Shown here: positions 4,246 through 35,784 of the stretch, one piece after another
Layout: each line of letters starts with the position of its first letter
How positions within the stretch are numbered: the first letter of the stretch is position 1
Program-made: the position numbers and the translations under genes
Notes under the pieces: model-generated
Seen by the model: the letters and a program-made list of their open reading frames with translations, nothing else
What the model was told of the DNA's origin: nothing
Databases searched by the model: none
Source of the DNA: Lacinutrix sp. 5H-3-7-4
GTDB taxonomy: Bacteria; Bacteroidota; Bacteroidia; Flavobacteriales; Flavobacteriaceae
Direction: 5' to 3'
DNA: 64,000 nucleotides
Assembly (NCBI RefSeq): GCF_000211855.2
Contig: NC_015638.1
Location: forward strand, 1,674,001 to 1,738,000

Positions 4246-6765
4246 TTAGAAATAAAACCCAAAACTACCTGTTACACCAAATTTTCTAGCATCTGGATTA
4301 AAACTTGGATCTAAATAATTACCTCTAAAGTTAAAATCTATTCTAAACACTTTAAAAATATTGCCAACGCCTATACTGTATTCGTAGTAAGCTTCTTTAT
4401 TTGGAGCAACATAAACAAATGGCGTTCCGTCTGGATTAAACGATGCATTTATATCTCTATTTTCTTGAGAGACATCTCCCATAACACCTCTAAAACCAAC
4501 AATAGCTCTAAGGTTTAGTTTTTTAAGTAATGGAATTCTAGAAAATAATCTCCCATTAAAATTATGCTCTACGTGTAATGTTGCGTATTCATCGGTTACA
4601 AACTCATAAAAATCTAACTGTGAAAAGGTGTTATAAATTGAAAAATATGATTGGTTTCCAGGAACAACACTCATTAAGGCTAATGGTATTTGCCCGTATG
4701 TTTTACCAACTTCTATAGACGTAGTTAAGCGACCAAAGCCACCAACTGCTATGGGTTGTATATACGAAAACTGAAGCTTTGTGTAATCAAAATCACTATC
4801 AAAAACACCTTTGTCTCCGCGAGTTACTTGAGCGAATAACTGTGCAAAATCACTGTTTTTTACACGACGTTCTACACCAAAACCTGTCATTTCTCGTTTT
4901 GGCATATAGCGAACAGAAAAAGCAGATTCATATTGCTTTATTTCTGATGCTGTAGTTGTTTGTGTAGCATCTGTATAATAATCTAAGCTAAAGGTTGGTG
5001 AGGCAGACTCTAAGGTTTTGTAAGTACCACTAACTCGTGTTACTAAATTTCTAACAAGTTCTGCTTCAATAGCAATTGTGCTTAGGTTTATATTGGTAAG
5101 CTTATCGTTAGTTCCTGTGCCAACTATAGAAGACGAAGCTAAACTTCTTCCTAAAACATCTGTAGATGAGGTTAAACTGGCTCCAATTTGTTCTACATCA
5201 CGCCTGTTACCACCAGAAATTATAAACCTGTTTTTTTTGTCTAATAACCATTTTCCAGAAATACCGTATTTAAACTTATTGTCTTTAAAACCGTAGGCTG
5301 TAAAACCTTCTAACCTCCAAAGGTCATTTTGTCCAAAATAGGTACGACCACCAGCACGTAAACGTAAACCTTCTACTTCGTTAAAACCAAAGGTTGAAAA
5401 TACGCTACCATAGTCTAGGTTTAGTTCATCAAATTCAATATATCCAGATGCTAATATGCTTCCTATATTATAAAGACGTTTAAATTTTTTGGTTTTCTTT
5501 AAAGAGTCTAACATGACGTAAACACCTTTTTCGTCTTTACTAAGCTTTTCCATTCTGTTTTCTTCCCAGAAAGCATCGTCTTGATTGTATAAATCTTCAT
5601 CAAAACTATAGACTTTTTCTTTGTAAAATTTCGGGTCTTTTTCAATATCAAACTTGTAATTATTATAGAGTGAAGTACGTTTACCATAAATACCTTGGGA
5701 CTTTTCCTTTTTATTAAAAGCAAAATCCGACATAAAATAATCACGTTTAATTAAAAATACAGAATCATTAAGTACCTCATATTCCTGTTCAATATATATT
5801 TCTTTTACCCAGTTTATATTTGCACTTTTAGAGGCTTGCATATTTATATCTTTAATAGCAAAAGTGGTATCTGCAACCCAAAAGTCTCCTTTAAAGGTTA
5901 ACTCGTTTTTACGTCGTGGGTAATAAATAATATTGTAACACCATTTGTTGTCTATATATGCGCTATCTGCTAGCACATAATTGTACACATTAATACCTGT
6001 TCTTGAAATAGGACTTGTAAAGCTTTTATCAAAAAACTTCAAATAGTTATCATAAACATCAAAATCGCTGTATAAGTCGTCAACAAAATCTATGATAATC
6101 TGGTTGTTACTAAAACCAGAGTTTTTATTACCTTTTAGTATTTCGCGTTTTTCGTTAATTATATTATCGCCATAAACTTCGCTAGACGATTCGTTAATAA
6201 ACATTGGTAAATAGGTTTTACCTGTTACGTTAGAGGTGTCTACCTGCTCAAAAACAAACTCCATACCTTTAAACAGTTTGCTTTTCATTGTTGCGCTGTC
6301 AATAGTATTTAAATCAAACTCTACTTTTTCGTAGCGATCGTATTGGTATTGGTTGTATTGCTTTAAACCATTACTTCTTTTGTTGGCCCATATTTTTCGT
6401 AAAATATCTATTGCTGGATTGTTTTTTTTAGGTTGCTTGCCAGAAACAATAAGTACTTCGTCTAGAGCTGCAACATCTTCTTTTAAAACAATATCAAAAT
6501 CGTAAGTTACCTTTTGTTTTAAAGGTACAGTTTGCGTGACGTAACTAATAAATGAAAAAACTACAGTGTCGTGATTGCCATCATCTTCTAGATAGTACGT
6601 TCCGTTTTCGTCTGTAATAGTTCCAATGCTTGTACCTTGAAAATAGACGTTTGCATAGGCTATAGGTTCATTACTTTCATCGTAAATGTGACCGCTAATT
6701 TTTGTTTGAGCTAAAACTGTAACACTAGCTAATAAAAACAAAAAGGATAATATTCTATATTTCAT
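4246..6765 (-). CDS. DUF5686 and carboxypeptidase-regulatory-like domain outer-membrane protein
   Basis: An 839-residue exported protein. It has a signal peptide (1-19, ending VTVLAQ), a carboxypeptidase-regulatory-like beta-sandwich (about 21-100; TKISGHIYDESNEPIAYANV) and a long DUF5686 region to the C terminus, rich in alternating aromatic beta-strands and ending GSFGFYF, as expected for an outer-membrane barrel. The family is widespread in Bacteroidota and, as far as I know, has no assigned function. It is separated from pdhB upstream by a terminator, so it is probably its own unit. Confidence 0.85.
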   Translation of the reverse strand: MKYRILSFLFLLASVTVLAQTKISGHIYDESNEPIAYANVYFQGTSIGTITDENGTYYLEDDGNHDTVVFSFISYVTQTVPLKQKVTYDFDIVLKEDVAALDEVLIVSGKQPKKNNPAIDILRKIWANKRSNGLKQYNQYQYDRYEKVEFDLNTIDSATMKSKLFKGMEFVFEQVDTSNVTGKTYLPMFINESSSEVYGDNIINEKREILKGNKNSGFSNNQIIIDFVDDLYSDFDVYDNYLKFFDKSFTSPISRTGINVYNYVLADSAYIDNKWCYNIIYYPRRKNELTFKGDFWVADTTFAIKDINMQASKSANINWVKEIYIEQEYEVLNDSVFLIKRDYFMSDFAFNKKEKSQGIYGKRTSLYNNYKFDIEKDPKFYKEKVYSFDEDLYNQDDAFWEENRMEKLSKDEKGVYVMLDSLKKTKKFKRLYNIGSILASGYIEFDELNLDYGSVFSTFGFNEVEGLRLRAGGRTYFGQNDLWRLEGFTAYGFKDNKFKYGISGKWLLDKKNRFIISGGNRRDVEQIGASLTSSTDVLGRSLASSSIVGTGTNDKLTNINLSTIAIEAELVRNLVTRVSGTYKTLESASPTFSLDYYTDATQTTTASEIKQYESAFSVRYMPKREMTGFGVERRVKNSDFAQLFAQVTRGDKGVFDSDFDYTKLQFSYIQPIAVGGFGRLTTSIEVGKTYGQIPLALMSVVPGNQSYFSIYNTFSQLDFYEFVTDEYATLHVEHNFNGRLFSRIPLLKKLNLRAIVGFRGVMGDVSQENRDINASFNPDGTPFVYVAPNKEAYYEYSIGVGNIFKVFRIDFNFRGNYLDPSFNPDARKFGVTGSFGFYF

Positions 6766-6780
6766 CTATTAGTTTTAAAT

Positions 6781-6818
6781 AAAAAAACTTCATCAACAAT
6801 CATGCTAATGAAGTTTTT
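6781..6818 (-). terminator. Intrinsic terminator after pdhB
   Basis: An 11-base stem (6783-6793 with 6808-6818, 14-base loop). On the minus strand it is followed by a T run. It lies just past the pdhB stop and before the DUF5686 gene. Confidence 0.7.
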
Positions 6819-6839
6819 ATAAAGGTAATTTTTTTTTAA

Positions 6840-7817
6840 TTACTTGTACATAACTTTTTTAACAGCTTTAATTACAGACTCATGGTTAGGTAACCACTCT
6901 TCTAATAAAACTGGAGAATAAGGTGCAGGAGTATCTGCTGTGTTAATTTTTACAACAGGAGCATCTAAATAATCAAAAGCTTCAGACTGTATAATATATG
7001 TTAGCTCAGTAGAAACGTTACCAAATGGCCAAGCTTCTTCTAAAACTACTAAACGGTTTGTTTTCTTAACAGATTCTAAAACGGCTTTTTTGTCTAATGG
7101 ACGTACAGTTCTTAAATCAATTATTTCACAAGAAATACCATCTTTTGCTAATTCATCTGCTGCTTTGTAAGCTTCTTTAATAATCTTTCCAAAAGAAACA
7201 ATAGTTACATCTGTTCCTTCTCTTTTAATATCGGCAACACCTAATGGTATAGTATATTCTCCTTCTGGTACTTCACCTTTATCACCATACATTTGCTCAC
7301 TTTCCATAAAAATAACAGGATCGTCGTCACGTATTGCAGATTTTAATAAACCTTTTGCATCGTAAGGGTTAGATGGTACAACAACTTTTAAACCAGGCGT
7401 GTTTGCAAACCAACTCTCGAAAGCTTGAGAGTGTGTAGCAGCTAATTGTCCTGCAGAAGCGGTTGGCCCACGAAAAACGATAGGACATTTAAATTGCCCA
7501 CCAGACATTTGTCTAATTTTTGCAGCGTTGTTAATAATTTGGTCAATTCCTACTAAAGAGAAATTAAATGTCATATATTCTACAATAGGTCTGTTTCCTG
7601 TCATGGTAGAACCTATAGCTATACCAGCAAATCCAAGCTCGGCAATTGGTGTGTCTATAACACGTTTAGCACCAAATTCGTCTAACATACCTTTAGATGC
7701 TTTGTAAGCACCATTATATTCTGCTACTTCTTCACCCATTAAATAAATGCTCTCATCACGGCGCATTTCTTCGCTCATGGCTTCACAAATAGCTTCTCTA
7801 AATTGAATTGTCTTCAT
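6840..7817 (-). CDS. pdhB: Pyruvate dehydrogenase E1 component, beta subunit
   Basis: A 325-residue thiamine-diphosphate-dependent E1 beta subunit that oxidatively decarboxylates pyruvate as part of the pyruvate dehydrogenase complex. It starts MKTIQFREAICEAMSEEM. The family signatures GEEVAEYNGAYKASKG, IDTPIAELGFAGIAIG and the C-terminal transketolase-C block (DLRTVRPLDKKAVLESVKKT) are present. The open frame continues 11 codons upstream, but the ATG at 7817 matches the family N terminus. E1 alpha and E2 are not adjacent in this window. A -7 box lies at 7839-7846. The gene is divergent from etfB. Confidence 0.95.
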   Translation of the reverse strand: MKTIQFREAICEAMSEEMRRDESIYLMGEEVAEYNGAYKASKGMLDEFGAKRVIDTPIAELGFAGIAIGSTMTGNRPIVEYMTFNFSLVGIDQIINNAAKIRQMSGGQFKCPIVFRGPTASAGQLAATHSQAFESWFANTPGLKVVVPSNPYDAKGLLKSAIRDDDPVIFMESEQMYGDKGEVPEGEYTIPLGVADIKREGTDVTIVSFGKIIKEAYKAADELAKDGISCEIIDLRTVRPLDKKAVLESVKKTNRLVVLEEAWPFGNVSTELTYIIQSEAFDYLDAPVVKINTADTPAPYSPVLLEEWLPNHESVIKAVKKVMYK

Positions 7818-31250: not shown

Positions 31251-32081
31251 ATGCGAATAATTAAACAGCTTTTTGATTTTTACTTAAACAGTAGTATTCA
31301 CGTGGCTTTAGCTGTTTGTGCTTTAAGTTGGATTAGCTTGATAGAGTTCAACATTATTTATGATGAAACTATACTACATTTTAACTTTTTTGCTACAATA
31401 ACAGGTTACAATTTTGTAAAGTATTTTGGTGTTGCTAAATTTCACCATAGAAGTTTAACTAAAGCATTAAAAAAAATTCAAATTTTTTCGTTTTTAAGCT
31501 TTGTAATGTTATGCTTTTTTGCTGTAAAATTACCTTTAAAAACACTTGTCTATATTTTAATATTTGGTGTTATTACCTTTTTATATGCTATACCGTTTAT
31601 ACCTAAAAATCTATATTTAGATAGCCAGCAAAACTTAAGAGATATTAGCGGTGTAAAAGTTTATATAATTGCTATGGTGTGGGTTGGTGTAACTGTTTTT
31701 ATTCCGTTTTTAAATAACGAAGTTAATTTAACCACAGATGTTTATATAGGTGCTGTACAGCGTTTTTTATTTGTTGTAGTTTTAATGTTGCCGTTTGAAA
31801 TTAGAGACTTAAAGTTTGATAGTTTAAGGTTGGCAACTATACCACAAAAAATAGGAGTGAAGTATACTAAAATACTTGGTTTGTTTCTTTTATTGTTATT
31901 TTTTATTTTAAATTATTTTAAAGATTTTATAGATGTAAAATCTTTGTTTATTTATGGAGTTGTAAGTATTTTGACTTTGTTTTTTTTAATAGCCTCTAAT
32001 AAAAAAAGGAGCTATTATTTTAGCTCCTTTTGGGTTGAAAGTATACCGATAATTTGGTTACTAATTATTTTGTTTAGCTAA
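31251..32081 (+). CDS. Polytopic membrane protein, possibly UbiA-prenyltransferase-like
   Basis: A 276-residue protein with about eight hydrophobic helices spread over its length. The organisation recalls UbiA-type prenyltransferases, but I do not see the two Asp-rich motifs in canonical form; the closest is FEIRDLKFDSLRLATIPQKIG (about 182-202), which resembles the second motif loop. It may be a divergent UbiA homologue or a Bacteroidota-specific membrane protein. Its 3' end overlaps the convergent anti-sigma gene by 21 bases and contains that operon's terminator hairpin. Confidence 0.7.
   Translation: MRIIKQLFDFYLNSSIHVALAVCALSWISLIEFNIIYDETILHFNFFATITGYNFVKYFGVAKFHHRSLTKALKKIQIFSFLSFVMLCFFAVKLPLKTLVYILIFGVITFLYAIPFIPKNLYLDSQQNLRDISGVKVYIIAMVWVGVTVFIPFLNNEVNLTTDVYIGAVQRFLFVVVLMLPFEIRDLKFDSLRLATIPQKIGVKYTKILGLFLLLLFFILNYFKDFIDVKSLFIYGVVSILTLFFLIASNKKRSYYFSSFWVESIPIIWLLIILFS
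32001..32031 (-). terminator. Terminator of the second ECF operon, inside the opposite gene
   Basis: A perfect 11-base stem (32004-32014 with 32021-32031, core GGAGCTA/TAGCTCC) followed on the minus strand by seven T. It lies 30 bases past the anti-sigma stop and within codons of the plus-strand membrane-protein gene. Confidence 0.7.
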
Positions 32082-32916: not shown

Positions 32917-33312
32917 CTATTTAAAGAATATCATTAAAAATATTGTACTAAAGTAAAGCCATACAAAAGAGAAGAATATATGTACTATTGTTTCAAACAT
33001 TTTGCCTTTCCATAGTTTTACTGAATAAACAAAAAATTGCATGAATGCTCTAATACTCCAAAAAACACCTAATCCTAACGCTAATTTGTTTCCTAGTTTG
33101 GTTTCAATTATTTCTACTCCAGAGGTAAGGCATAGTAAACCCATTAAAAAAACGGTTAATGCAATAAAAAATGTATGCACGGTTACCATTTGTCTATTTA
33201 TTAAACTCAAAGGCTTTAATTCTACTTTCCAATTAAAATATCTTGGAAATATTATATGGACTAATGCAAGTGCAATTAAAATTAAACCGATTATTTTTAA
33301 ATGTAGTAACAT
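32917..33312 (-). CDS. Four-helix membrane protein of unknown function
   Basis: A 131-residue protein with four predicted membrane helices (about 5-23, 45-65, 75-95, 107-129) and few polar residues. No family is recognised with confidence; size and topology recall small DoxX-like or DUF-type membrane proteins. It is the last gene of an operon that runs DoxX-like, DUF2071, methyltransferase, this gene, with a five-base gap to the methyltransferase gene. Its job is probably tied to theirs. Confidence 0.75.
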   Translation of the reverse strand: MLLHLKIIGLILIALALVHIIFPRYFNWKVELKPLSLINRQMVTVHTFFIALTVFLMGLLCLTSGVEIIETKLGNKLALGLGVFWSIRAFMQFFVYSVKLWKGKMFETIVHIFFSFVWLYFSTIFLMIFFK

Positions 33313-33317
33313 AATAT

Positions 33318-34070
33318 TTAGTTTTTAAATGAAAAAATCGACATAAATGGTGTGAACTTATCTTCTAATACATTATTAAATCCAGCTTTTTTAAAAACGT
33401 TAACCCATGTTTTTTTGGAGAAAAAATGTGTGAAACCAATTGAGAAAGCGAAAAAGTTTGGTATATCTCTTAAGTGCTCAACTAAAATTACTTTTCCGTT
33501 TGTTTTACAAACACGATGGCACTCTTTTAAAAATTGAATTTTTTCTGAATTTTTTCTAATTTCATGAGCTGCTGAGAGTAAAAAAATAATATCAACACAA
33601 TTGTCTTTTAATGGAATTTTAGAGGTAACTATTTGTTTTGTATTTGGGAATTGGTTGGTAACCTTTCTTGCTCTAACAATTGCAGGTTCTGTGTGTTTTA
33701 TTGGATTGTAAAAATCGTATACCTGAAATTTTGAAAGTGGAAATTTTTCTTTTAAAGAAAAACTCGTTTCATCAAAACCTGCATTAATATTTAGTATTAG
33801 TTGGTTTTCTTTGTCTTTTAAATTTTTATTTTTTAGCCAATTAAAGTTATAGTATCCTGCATAATCATATACGTAAGCAGATATTATAAGAGGTATTAAT
33901 AATCCATAAGAAAAAGCTAGTACTATAAGCTTAAGCATTAATAATGACCATTGAAAGTATATAAATAAAGTAATTATTAGCACTAAAACTAATAAACCAT
34001 AAATGTAAAAGTGCCTGTTAAAACTTAAAATATTTAATACACCTTGAAATTTTTTTCTTTTTAATTCCAT
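33318..34070 (-). CDS. Membrane-anchored class I SAM-dependent methyltransferase
   Basis: About 250 residues. Two hydrophobic segments near the N terminus (about 20-40 and 44-64) anchor it. The methyltransferase core follows: LILNINAGFDETSFSLKEKF in the SAM-site position, a DIIFLLSAAHEIRKNSEKI block and HRVCKTNGKVILVEHLRD, like UbiE-type folds. Motif I lacks the usual GxGxG (NINAGFDE), so SAM binding should be tested. The frame extends to an ATG at 34094; I chose 34070, overlapping DUF2071 by 10 bases. The substrate is probably a lipid or quinone-like molecule, by inference from the anchor. Confidence 0.78.
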   Translation of the reverse strand: MELKRKKFQGVLNILSFNRHFYIYGLLVLVLIITLFIYFQWSLLMLKLIVLAFSYGLLIPLIISAYVYDYAGYYNFNWLKNKNLKDKENQLILNINAGFDETSFSLKEKFPLSKFQVYDFYNPIKHTEPAIVRARKVTNQFPNTKQIVTSKIPLKDNCVDIIFLLSAAHEIRKNSEKIQFLKECHRVCKTNGKVILVEHLRDIPNFFAFSIGFTHFFSKKTWVNVFKKAGFNNVLEDKFTPFMSIFSFKN

Positions 34071-34798
34071 AATTCTATCTCTCCTTTTTTCCAATAATAT
34101 GGTATGTTTTCTATAATAAATGCGTTTGCTAATACGTGATTTTTTAATTGTAATTTTTTAAAAAAATCAACACTGTAGTGTTCTATTTCAATTGGTTTTG
34201 GTTTCCAATATTGTCTTACTCCTTGAATTATTAACATTTCTTTCTTTTTGTTGTTATATGTAAAAGTAAAAGGTAATGGTCCTGCAAAACGTCTGGCTTC
34301 TTTCCAGTTTAAAAATGGAGAGTTGTTTGGTAAATTAATAGCGTTTTTACTGTTATTAATTGTAATACTAAAGTTTGATTGTTTAGATGCTATTTCGGTT
34401 TTGTTTTTTGTAATAGTTTGTTTTACATCTGTTGACGTGTAGTTGTAATGTGTAAAAGTATTACCCAATATTGCCATTTTCTTTTTATCGGTTTCAGATT
34501 TTATTATATATAAACCACGCAAACGTTTTCCTTTTTTATTGGTGTAGCGCACAAATATGCGATAACCGATTAAGAAAAAATCATTTCCTAAAAATTTGGG
34601 AAAACCTTTTGGTCTTAAATCCTTAGTCTGAACCATTGCAACAGCAACAAATGCCCATTTATCTTTGAAAGTGTCTAATGTTAAACAATCTGGAATTAGG
34701 GTTTGCAGTTGCTCTTTTGGTACAGCAAAAGTTAATACTGTTGAGTTTTTAAAAAAAGCTTCAACTGCAAAAGGATGATTTTTAAGTGATATAAACAT
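34061..34798 (-). CDS. DUF2071 family protein (COG3361-like)
   Basis: A 245-residue soluble protein starting MFISLKNHPFAVEAFFKNST. It fits the DUF2071 family, with an acetoacetate-decarboxylase-like fold by published family descriptions: YRIFVRYTNKKGKRLRGLYIIKSET-type strands and an RFAGPLPFTF motif. No enzymatic activity has been established for the family, to my knowledge. It overlaps the methyltransferase gene downstream and the DoxX-like gene upstream (17 bases), so translation is probably coupled. Confidence 0.78.
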   Translation of the reverse strand: MFISLKNHPFAVEAFFKNSTVLTFAVPKEQLQTLIPDCLTLDTFKDKWAFVAVAMVQTKDLRPKGFPKFLGNDFFLIGYRIFVRYTNKKGKRLRGLYIIKSETDKKKMAILGNTFTHYNYTSTDVKQTITKNKTEIASKQSNFSITINNSKNAINLPNNSPFLNWKEARRFAGPLPFTFTYNNKKKEMLIIQGVRQYWKPKPIEIEHYSVDFFKKLQLKNHVLANAFIIENIPYYWKKGEIELWN

Positions 34799-35177
34799 GG
34801 TCTTTTTTTAAATTAAAATGATAGCTGTTTAAGTAGATTAATATGCAAAATAAAAAGGCAAAAATGATATTGTATTTATGCCATAATAGTAAGTTTGAAG
34901 CCATTATAAATTCTATACAGTTCATTAATAATATTATTATAATCTGTAATACTGCATTGCATTTTTGTTTGTAGTGGCTAAGTATCCATATAGCCATACA
35001 TATTTCTAAGAAACCTATTATTATAATTAATAGTCTTGAGTGTGCTGTGTTTATTATTTGTGCAACAATAGCTTCATGTCTTGGTACCTGGTTTAGTATT
35101 TTGCAGTACAAACCATTTACAAGCCAAACTAGAGCAATAATAATTGTAATTATTCTATTTAAAAATATATTTTTCAT
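34782..35177 (-). CDS. DoxX-like small membrane protein
   Basis: A 131-residue protein with four membrane helices starting MKNIFLNRIITIIIALVWLVNGLYCKIL. The early VNGLYCKILNQVPRHEAIVA resembles the DoxX-like (DoxX_3) family, which often accompanies oxidoreductases or methyltransferases. It is the first gene of a four-gene operon. A 22-base inverted repeat (35187-35208) lies 9 bases before its ATG and matches the palindrome before the adjacent regulator gene, so the operon is probably controlled by that regulator. Confidence 0.78.
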   Translation of the reverse strand: MKNIFLNRIITIIIALVWLVNGLYCKILNQVPRHEAIVAQIINTAHSRLLIIIIGFLEICMAIWILSHYKQKCNAVLQIIIILLMNCIEFIMASNLLLWHKYNIIFAFLFCILIYLNSYHFNLKKDHVYIT

Positions 35178-35186
35178 ACATATTAA

Positions 35187-35208
35187 ACTTTCAGAAAAAA
35201 TTGAAAGT
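35187..35208. promoter_or_regulatory. Candidate operator for the GbsR/MarR-type regulator, operon side
   Basis: ACTTTCA-N8-TGAAAGT, identical in half-sites and spacing to the operator at 35753-35774. It stands between the DoxX-like ATG and the regulator stop codon, overlapping the expected promoter of the four-gene operon. Confidence 0.65.
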
Positions 35209-35223
35209 AGTGTTTAAATTTTT

Positions 35224-35727
35224 TTATTTAAAGAATTTTAAAACAGACTTTGTAATCCAGTTTTGTTTCTGGTTAACTAATTTATTTATAACAGCATCCA
35301 TGGTTTCTGTTAGTTCATGTAATGCTTTTGTTTGTTTTATAAGTTCTTTTGTTTTTTCACTACCGTCGTCTTTAATAGATGAGACTTCATCAAGAATTTT
35401 TATTACTGGCTGTATTTCACGTCTGCTTCTTTCTTTAGCTACAATTCTAGCTAATTCTTGCACATCTTTTTCGGTAGTAAAAAACTCTTTTCTTTCTCCT
35501 GCGATTATTGTTTTGCTTACAATTCCCCAATCTATTAATTGGCGTAAATTCATAGATGTATTTCCACGAGAGATTTTAAGTTCGTCCATAATCTCTTCCA
35601 TAGATAATGGTTTTGTAGAAATAAAAAGTAAGGCTTGAATTTGTGCCATTGCTTTGTTAATTCCCCAAAGAGAGCCTAAACTTCCCCAAGTACTAATAAA
35701 TTTATCTTTTGCTTCTTGATATTGCAT
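35224..35727 (-). CDS. GbsR/MarR-type winged-helix transcriptional regulator
   Basis: A 167-residue DNA-binding protein. The winged helix-turn-helix covers about 25-95: SMEEIMDELKISRGNTSMNLRQL for helices 2 and 3 and IVSKTIIAGERKEFFTTEKDV for the wing. A C-terminal helical part (about 97-150) is suited to dimerisation. The family matches GbsR (COG1510). A perfect 26-base palindrome overlaps its promoter, and a copy of the core stands before the next operon, so autoregulation plus control of DoxX-DUF2071-methyltransferase genes is likely. The ligand is unknown. Confidence 0.85.
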   Translation of the reverse strand: MQYQEAKDKFISTWGSLGSLWGINKAMAQIQALLFISTKPLSMEEIMDELKISRGNTSMNLRQLIDWGIVSKTIIAGERKEFFTTEKDVQELARIVAKERSRREIQPVIKILDEVSSIKDDGSEKTKELIKQTKALHELTETMDAVINKLVNQKQNWITKSVLKFFK

Positions 35728-35731
35728 GATT

Positions 35732-35739
35732 CAAATATA
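35732..35739 (-). promoter_or_regulatory. -7 promoter box for the GbsR/MarR-type regulator gene
   Basis: TATATTTG on the minus strand matches TAnnTTTG. A TTG on that strand lies 18 bases further upstream, inside the palindrome (35758-35760), a good -33/-7 pair. Bound regulator would block it. Confidence 0.6.
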
Positions 35740-35750
35740 TAATAATTTTT

Positions 35751-35776
35751 AAACTTTCAATAATTATTGAAAGTTT
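35751..35776. promoter_or_regulatory. 26-base perfect palindromic operator before the regulator gene
   Basis: A perfect palindrome built on AAACTTTCA half-sites, containing ACTTTCA-N8-TGAAAGT at 35753-35774. It covers the -33 position of the regulator promoter and is 24 bases from the ATG. Confidence 0.75.
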
Positions 35777-35784
35777 ATTTTTTA

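Follow-up and report, generated by a model that had tools for sequence, protein, structure and literature searches.

A Predicted Self-Regulating GbsR-Type Repressor Locus and Its Exchangeable Load in Lacinutrix sp. 5H-3-7-4 and Other Bacteroidota

Introduction

According to PMC6207618, four GbsR-type regulators had been studied by 2018, and all of them were repressors. For an unassigned group of GbsR-type regulators in the Bacteroidetes, the same paper reports "no consistent picture" from gene neighbourhoods. Here, we describe what is presumably a member of that group, the GbsR/MarR-type regulator encoded by gbsR of Lacinutrix sp. 5H-3-7-4, together with its two putative flanking operators and the four-gene membrane cassette that follows. 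These elements lie in a stretch of 64,000 nucleotides (nt), referred to below as the window, comprising bases 1,674,001–1,738,000 of the single-contig genome (NC_015638.1; 3,296,168 bases). We consider it quite probable that gbsR and its flanks form an autoregulated repressor locus with an exchangeable load, in which the second operator serves as a roadblock and the membrane cassette, the load found in Lacinutrix sp., acts jointly. The open-licence literature yielded no paper combining GbsR, Flavobacteri- and operon.

Two described systems offer a comparison. CydE of Alishewanella sp. WH16-1, the GbsR-type repressor of cydEAB, protects TATTTCAGAAATTTCTGAAAGTTCA from DNase I (PMC6096048). Like the regulator proposed here, CydE is a repressor co-transcribed with the genes behind it; unlike the window locus, whose load consists of other membrane genes, it governs cytochrome bd and responds to sulfate. 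In B. subtilis, OpcR covers a −35 region, and GbsR acts as a roadblock at gbsAB and opuB (PMC7396694). These, too, are MarR-type repressors on A/T-rich inverted repeats. The differences are that B. subtilis splits the two modes of blocking between OpcR and GbsR, whereas the window GbsR would use both, and that the half-sites of B. subtilis GbsR are 4 base pairs (bp) apart, in contrast to 8 bp in the Bacteroidota operator.

Organization of the gbsR Locus

The features of the locus are as follows; the coordinates of the promoter boxes were derived by hand from the printed sequence.

35750–35777 (motif copy 35753–35774), no strand: operator 1, a 28-bp palindrome without mismatch that covers the predicted −33 box of gbsR
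35732–35760, minus strand: predicted gbsR promoter, with TTG at 35760–35758, an 18-nt spacer and TATATTTG at 35739–35732
35224–35727, minus strand: gbsR, GbsR/MarR-type regulator of 167 amino acids (aa) (Pfam MarR_2; PDB 1ku9, MJ223)
35187–35208, no strand: operator 2, 15 nt past the gbsR stop codon and 9 nt ahead of gene 1
34782–35177, minus strand: cassette gene 1, membrane protein of the DoxX_3 family, 131 aa (Pfam; alignment of 12)
34061–34798, minus strand: cassette gene 2, DUF2071 protein, 245 aa (Pfam; alignment of 14)
33318–34070, minus strand: cassette gene 3, methyltransferase-fold protein, 250 aa (Pfam, structure prediction, Foldseek)
32917–33312, minus strand: cassette gene 4, small protein predicted to form four long helices (four-transmembrane, 4TM), 131 aa (structure prediction)

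An earlier, sequence-only reading had pointed to two copies of ACTTTCA-N8-TGAAAGT flanking a GbsR/MarR-type gene, one of them 9 nt ahead of the first cassette gene, and to a palindrome over the −33 element of the regulator gene. Both copies are present, at 35753–35774 and 35187–35208, 566 nt apart; the 9-nt distance is confirmed on the sequence, and the TTG that 18 nt separate from TATATTTG falls under operator 1. The palindrome is perfect, as that reading held, and is 28 bases long rather than 26. Its description of two identical operators applies to the shared 7-base arms and not to the inner 8 bases, which are not palindromic in operator 2. Within the cassette, genes 1 and 2 overlap by 17 nt and genes 2 and 3 by 10 nt, and 5 nt separate genes 3 and 4.

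GbsR matches MJ223 (PDB 1ku9) over residues 4–147 (E 6.1e-20). Its N-terminal winged helix-turn-helix is recognized by the Pfam models MarR_2 (33.9 bits against a cut-off of 27) and HTH_5 (32.1 against 22).

A Motif Tied to the Regulator

A search of the complete genome found two exact copies of ACTTTCA-N8-TGAAAGT, both at gbsR. Sites with one mismatch are absent genome-wide, and sites with up to two mismatches number 45, the two exact copies included, against 46 for a reversed control pattern. Since matches with up to three mismatches do not exceed chance in the window (8 against 11.1 expected), the signal rests on the two exact copies. A wider regulon in the source genome was ruled out by the same absence of further exact or one-mismatch sites, and the regulon, foreseen as small, is supported as a very small one.

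The motif follows the regulator among related genomes. In a draw of 149 genomes of the family, 29 were scored as GbsR-positive (homologue at E up to 1e-20) and 120 as GbsR-negative. The exact motif occurs in 25 of the 29 GbsR-positive genomes, with 36 of its 38 sites at the gbsR locus, and in none of 29 genomes searched from among the 120 GbsR-negative ones; these 29 include the five that carry the cassette without GbsR. The reversed control pattern gave no site in the positive set and three in the negative set. The two exact copies away from gbsR (G033 contig 45, 145968–145989; G144 contig 14, 101018–101039) may be chance occurrences or further targets.

The flanks were then compared across 61 gbsR loci, which remained from 67 tblastn matches after one near a contig end and five duplicates were removed. 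This set was partly gathered via the cassette and is therefore an uneven sample enriched for it. The core TTTCA-N8-TGAAA stands ahead of gbsR in 60/61 loci and behind it in 58/61. Operator 1, sought up to 80 nt from gbsR, has no mismatch in 42 loci, one in 13 and two in 5, and is absent from one (L137). Operator 2, sought up to 220 nt behind gbsR, has no mismatch in 33 loci, one in 10, two in 10 and three in 5, and is absent from three. A site with up to three mismatches is expected by chance at 11.1 per 64 kb, or in about 3% of searches of the 220-nt type. In the accepted sites, TTTCA and TGAAA are invariant and the mismatches are confined to the outer two letters of the arms; the GbsR proteins of the set are as low as 43% identical to the window protein.

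The DNA protected by CydE supplies an experimental counterpart. The first 22 letters of TATTTCAGAAATTTCTGAAAGTTCA contain TTTCA-N8-TGAAA and share 20/22 positions with the closest Bacteroidota operator collected. On a matrix of the Bacteroidota sites, which themselves score 13.2–34.5, this CydE site 1 scores 21.7, a value reached by none of 1,000,000 random 22-mers. The tie of motif to regulator, and the match of its core to a footprinted GbsR-type site, bear out the regulator-linked operator pair of the sequence-only reading: the ACTTTCA-N8-TGAAAGT sites are very probably GbsR operators. The footprint (PMC6096048) suggests an operator core common to a gammaproteobacterium and the Bacteroidota.

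The shared core also raises the question of whether this GbsR is of a known physiological type, whether for cytochrome bd, as with CydE, or for choline/betaine, as a weak match to the CudC model might indicate. That match, at 51.9 bits, falls far below the NCBIfam equivalog cut-off of 218, and the identity of an osmostress GbsR was dropped on this ground; PMC6207618 describes the aromatic choline cage as absent outside the osmostress group. No osmolyte gene is found among the loads examined, the genome not having been searched for choline or betaine genes. The cydB homologue, at 3,109,343, is more than 50 kb from any copy of the motif with two or fewer mismatches, and CydE-like control of cytochrome bd was rejected on this account. 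A known GbsR type is accordingly disfavoured, and we regard it as highly improbable.

Promoter Layout

A TAnnTTTG box precedes gbsR in 58/61 loci, and in 57 of these 58 a TTG or CTG is found 18–20 nt ahead of it, inside operator 1. The end of the box is 4 nt from the gbsR ATG in 47/58 loci, 3 nt in 2 and 10–25 nt in 9; in the window, it is 4 nt (35725–35739). Because the sigma-A TAnnTTTG box of F. psychrophilum is located at −12 to −5 (PMC9723704) and the box here ends 4 nt before the ATG, the gbsR mRNA is predicted to be leaderless, starting with the A of the ATG. Such mRNAs are rare in the flavobacterial map, at 5.5% of those examined (PMC9723704).

A comparable layout is rare at operator 2. 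In a scan for this box over the span that starts 250 nt ahead of operator 2 and ends 60 nt beyond it, TAnnTTTG occurs in 3/61 loci, and with a TTG 17–21 nt upstream in 1/61. A sigma-A promoter belonging to the load itself was ruled out on these counts. The regulator gene and its load are accordingly modelled as one transcription unit, in which initiation would be blocked at operator 1 and elongation at operator 2. A reading of the motif as an RNA hairpin was also rejected: operator 1 is upstream of the predicted start site, yet its core is identical to that of operator 2.

One might propose that GbsR activates the load, with operator 2 forming part of a promoter immediately ahead of gene 1 that has gone unrecognised. 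MarR-type regulators do include activators (PMC6207618), and the promoter scan covered the TAnnTTTG type only. However, operator 1 covers the −33 box, operator 2, at 9 nt before gene 1, sits downstream of the position that the polymerase would require, and the GbsR-type proteins studied are the repressors mentioned above (PMC6207618). We consider activation very unlikely and retain repression as the preferred reading.

The Cassette as a Mobile Unit

Gene 3 is found in 14/149 genomes of the family draw and in 10/296 of a phylum draw. Relatives are encoded in 351 stretches of named genomes, of which the best 80 were analysed, with up to 6 kb on each side. The closest gene 3 among these 80, at 78% identity, is that of a Lacinutrix metagenome-assembled genome. 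All four genes stand in the order DoxX, DUF2071, gene 3, gene 4 in 75/80, and three of the five exceptions start near a contig end. This fixed four-gene unit was not found in the open-licence literature, nor was a paper with both DUF2071 and DoxX.

GbsR is encoded within the stretch in 29 of the 80 cassette loci, so the cassette is usually away from gbsR. Of the 29 loci with GbsR, 27 have an operator with at most two mismatches in the 2 kb upstream of gene 1, against 4 of the 51 without it. These four are the Chryseobacterium loci L121, L156, L157 and L160 (1, 2, 1 and 1 mismatches, respectively); each genome has gbsR elsewhere, and the operators of that distant gbsR show drift in the same outer letters. 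Ten further cassette genomes, of which four encode GbsR elsewhere (two Pedobacter, Niastella and Aquimarina) and six have none, show no operator before the cassette (0/10). The link between cassette and GbsR is frequent, not general.

In the gene 3 tree, which is rough, families are intermixed; one well-supported set, for instance, joins Flavobacterium, Sphingobacterium and Fluviicola, as expected from horizontal transfer. On this tree of 79 rows, for which the bootstrap had not settled and row L116 forms an aberrant long branch, probably from a wrong frame, adjacency to gbsR needs 11 changes, four of them forced by well-supported branches. Shuffling gave a mean of 23.8, with 0/500 as low. The tree no more than hints at repeated gain and loss.

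Some neighbours of the cassette deserve mention. In L023, from a genome without GbsR, a gene recognized by eye as IS110-type transposase-like (4714–5679) lies about 0.5 kb upstream of the cassette and is a possible means of spreading. In the Pedobacter loci L102, L106, L127 and L128, the cassette stands 7 nt behind a short-chain dehydrogenase-like gene and beside an enoyl-CoA-hydratase-like gene, both assigned by eye; L102 and L106 have no operator near the cassette, and the Pedobacter arrangement is a different regulatory setting. In the window, a 276-aa protein (31251–32081) is conserved beside gcvP in many related loci and matches nothing in Pfam or NCBIfam up to E 0.1.

The Variable Load behind gbsR

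In the 149-genome draw, gene 3 is present in 14 genomes and GbsR in 29, and the two stand side by side in 9 (overlap P = 1.3e-4). The 20 genomes with GbsR only carry a mixed load behind gbsR, in which families were assigned on representatives: small membrane proteins, a CMAS-like methyltransferase, TIGR01777 oxidoreductases, SRPBCC, another DUF2071 protein, a DCC1-like protein and a fatty-acid desaturase. Of the 61 loci, 51 extend 4.5 kb or more past gbsR; in these 51, a set enriched for the cassette, the cassette is found in 33, TIGR01777 in 19 and a CMAS-like gene in 18. The desaturase genes behind GbsR and operator 2 are at 6714–7613 in L068 and 9123–9905 in L075. No paper in the open-licence literature pairs TIGR01777 with SRPBCC or with photolyase.

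A relative of gene 4 in other GbsR loads is 30% identical over 104 columns (E 2e-7, a single comparison), and gene 2 is just 19% identical to the other DUF2071 protein of the GbsR-regulon type.

A genome of the same genus, G091, encodes a GbsR that is 99% identical and has both operators letter for letter, with no cassette behind. Its load (locus L061) is instead a small membrane protein (7063–7392) and a CMAS-like methyltransferase (6160–7035). Because other Lacinutrix loci have the cassette and the CMAS-type load together, loss from a longer load and a swap are equally likely.

A load that varies among genomes would also be expected if the operator pair were purely autoregulatory, with operator 2 as an auxiliary site, for example for looping, of the gbsR promoter and the downstream genes as passengers. 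The nearly fixed operator spacing, which follows from a nearly fixed gbsR length across the loci, agrees with this as well. Three arrangements argue against it: the operators ahead of the cassette without an adjoining gbsR in the four Chryseobacterium genomes; the extra operator farther along the load in L063 and L099; and L137, in which an exact operator precedes a DUF2071 gene that itself precedes gbsR, with none directly before gbsR. We find a purely autoregulatory role unlikely and favour control of both gbsR and its load.

The Cassette Proteins

Gene 1 is assigned to DoxX_3 with 66.2 bits against a Pfam cut-off of 25 and gene 2 to DUF2071 with 62.9 against 27. The one DUF2071 paper found in the open-licence literature deals with its fold and describes DUF2071 as related to the acetoacetate-decarboxylase fold and lacking its Schiff-base lysine (PMC4520260); the DUF2071 profile gave two weak matches to PDB sequences.

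Class I S-adenosylmethionine (SAM) methyltransferases usually have a glycine-rich SAM loop, motif I. Gene 3 passes the Pfam cut-off for Methyltransf_11 (31.7 bits), and its AlphaFold2 model has a predicted local distance difference test (pLDDT) score of 87.4 with 50 sequences. The nearest folds in Foldseek are class I methyltransferases of many kinds, the best being 3dh0 (E 1.5e-9), with yeast Coq5 with SAM among them (E 3.2e-9). The membrane anchor and altered SAM motif that had been ascribed to this protein are both borne out: two predicted helices, 19–39 and 43–70, are the likely anchor, and NINAGFD aligns with the glycine loop DVGGGNG of 2qyo, the usual glycine-rich loop being absent. At the position of the SAM loop, AGFDETS is invariant in 50/50 sequences, as is D119, the acid at the end of strand 2.

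These features bear on the idea that the cassette would methylate a quinone or lipid in a SAM-dependent pathway, in line with the lipid or quinone derivative that the sequence-only reading had suggested as product; this proposal competes with ours in its weakest step only. The Methyltransf_11 assignment, a UbiE/COQ5 score barely above the Pfam cut-off (21.9 against 20.1 bits), the Coq5 fold, the membrane anchor and the invariant D119 speak for it. The replacement of the glycine loop by NINAGFD, with AGFDETS invariant, and a score of 31.5 against the NCBIfam cut-off of 158.35 for the UbiE/MenG subfamily speak against it. Such a pathway is possible, if somewhat doubtful.

Gene 4 is modelled with a pLDDT of 92.8 and has long helices at 2–25, 37–63, 72–94 and 105–130. 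It reaches no Pfam cut-off and has no solved relative in the PDB (four Foldseek matches up to E 10, the best at 6.5). H19, H46, R88 and H111 are invariant in 48/48 sequences and, from their positions in the helices of the model, could lie near one face.

In the likeliest reading, and one that we infer, the cassette would form a membrane-bound unit with a hydrophobic substrate. Our reasons are that membrane embedding or anchoring is predicted for three of its four proteins and that some of the alternative loads are lipid-type enzymes (desaturase, CMAS-like).

Proposed Mechanism

We propose the following scheme. A dimer of GbsR would bind TTTCA-N8-TGAAA, in Lacinutrix sp. as well. At operator 1, it would cover the −33 box and halt initiation at its own, probably leaderless, promoter. 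At operator 2, between gbsR and the load and inside an apparent single transcription unit without a second sigma-A promoter, it would most likely act as a roadblock to moving polymerase. An inducer would lift both blocks. The load thus released in Lacinutrix sp. would be the mobile membrane cassette, and its four products probably work jointly on a hydrophobic substrate; this last is the weakest step. The computation itself yields the operators, their link with the regulator, the layout of the promoter and the unity of the cassette. Binding and repression by GbsR in Lacinutrix sp., the roadblock and a joint biochemical function of the cassette are what we infer from them.

Four points weigh against this scheme. 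Operator 2 is kept less strictly than operator 1 (exact in 33/61 loci against 42/61). A second site footprinted with CydE lacks the TTTCA-N8-TGAAA core (PMC6096048). No operator precedes the cassette in the four further genomes in which GbsR is encoded elsewhere. Finally, there may be alternative-sigma promoters near operator 2.

Conclusions

The GbsR-type regulators of the Bacteroidota gain a defined small regulon where PMC6207618 saw no consistent target: beyond what was described for that group, the operator is now defined, as are the promoter layout and the loads that recur. The promoter layout spans the Flavobacteriaceae to Pedobacter and Chryseobacterium, and the recurrent target genes make up a short list. 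Also singled out is the cassette, a mobile and well-conserved membrane unit with genes 1–3 in Pfam families and gene 4 outside any. It is tempting to go further and to propose, tentatively, that gbsR and its flanking operators may be a conserved regulatory dock, made up of a fixed promoter that represses itself and a roadblock site downstream, behind which membrane or lipid-type modules are exchanged horizontally, and that the cassette, as one such module, may be a new enzyme complex of the membrane whose methyltransferase fold serves a chemistry other than ordinary SAM methylation. In the scheme set out under the proposed mechanism, the regulatory part is well supported by the computational comparison and by the published CydE footprint.

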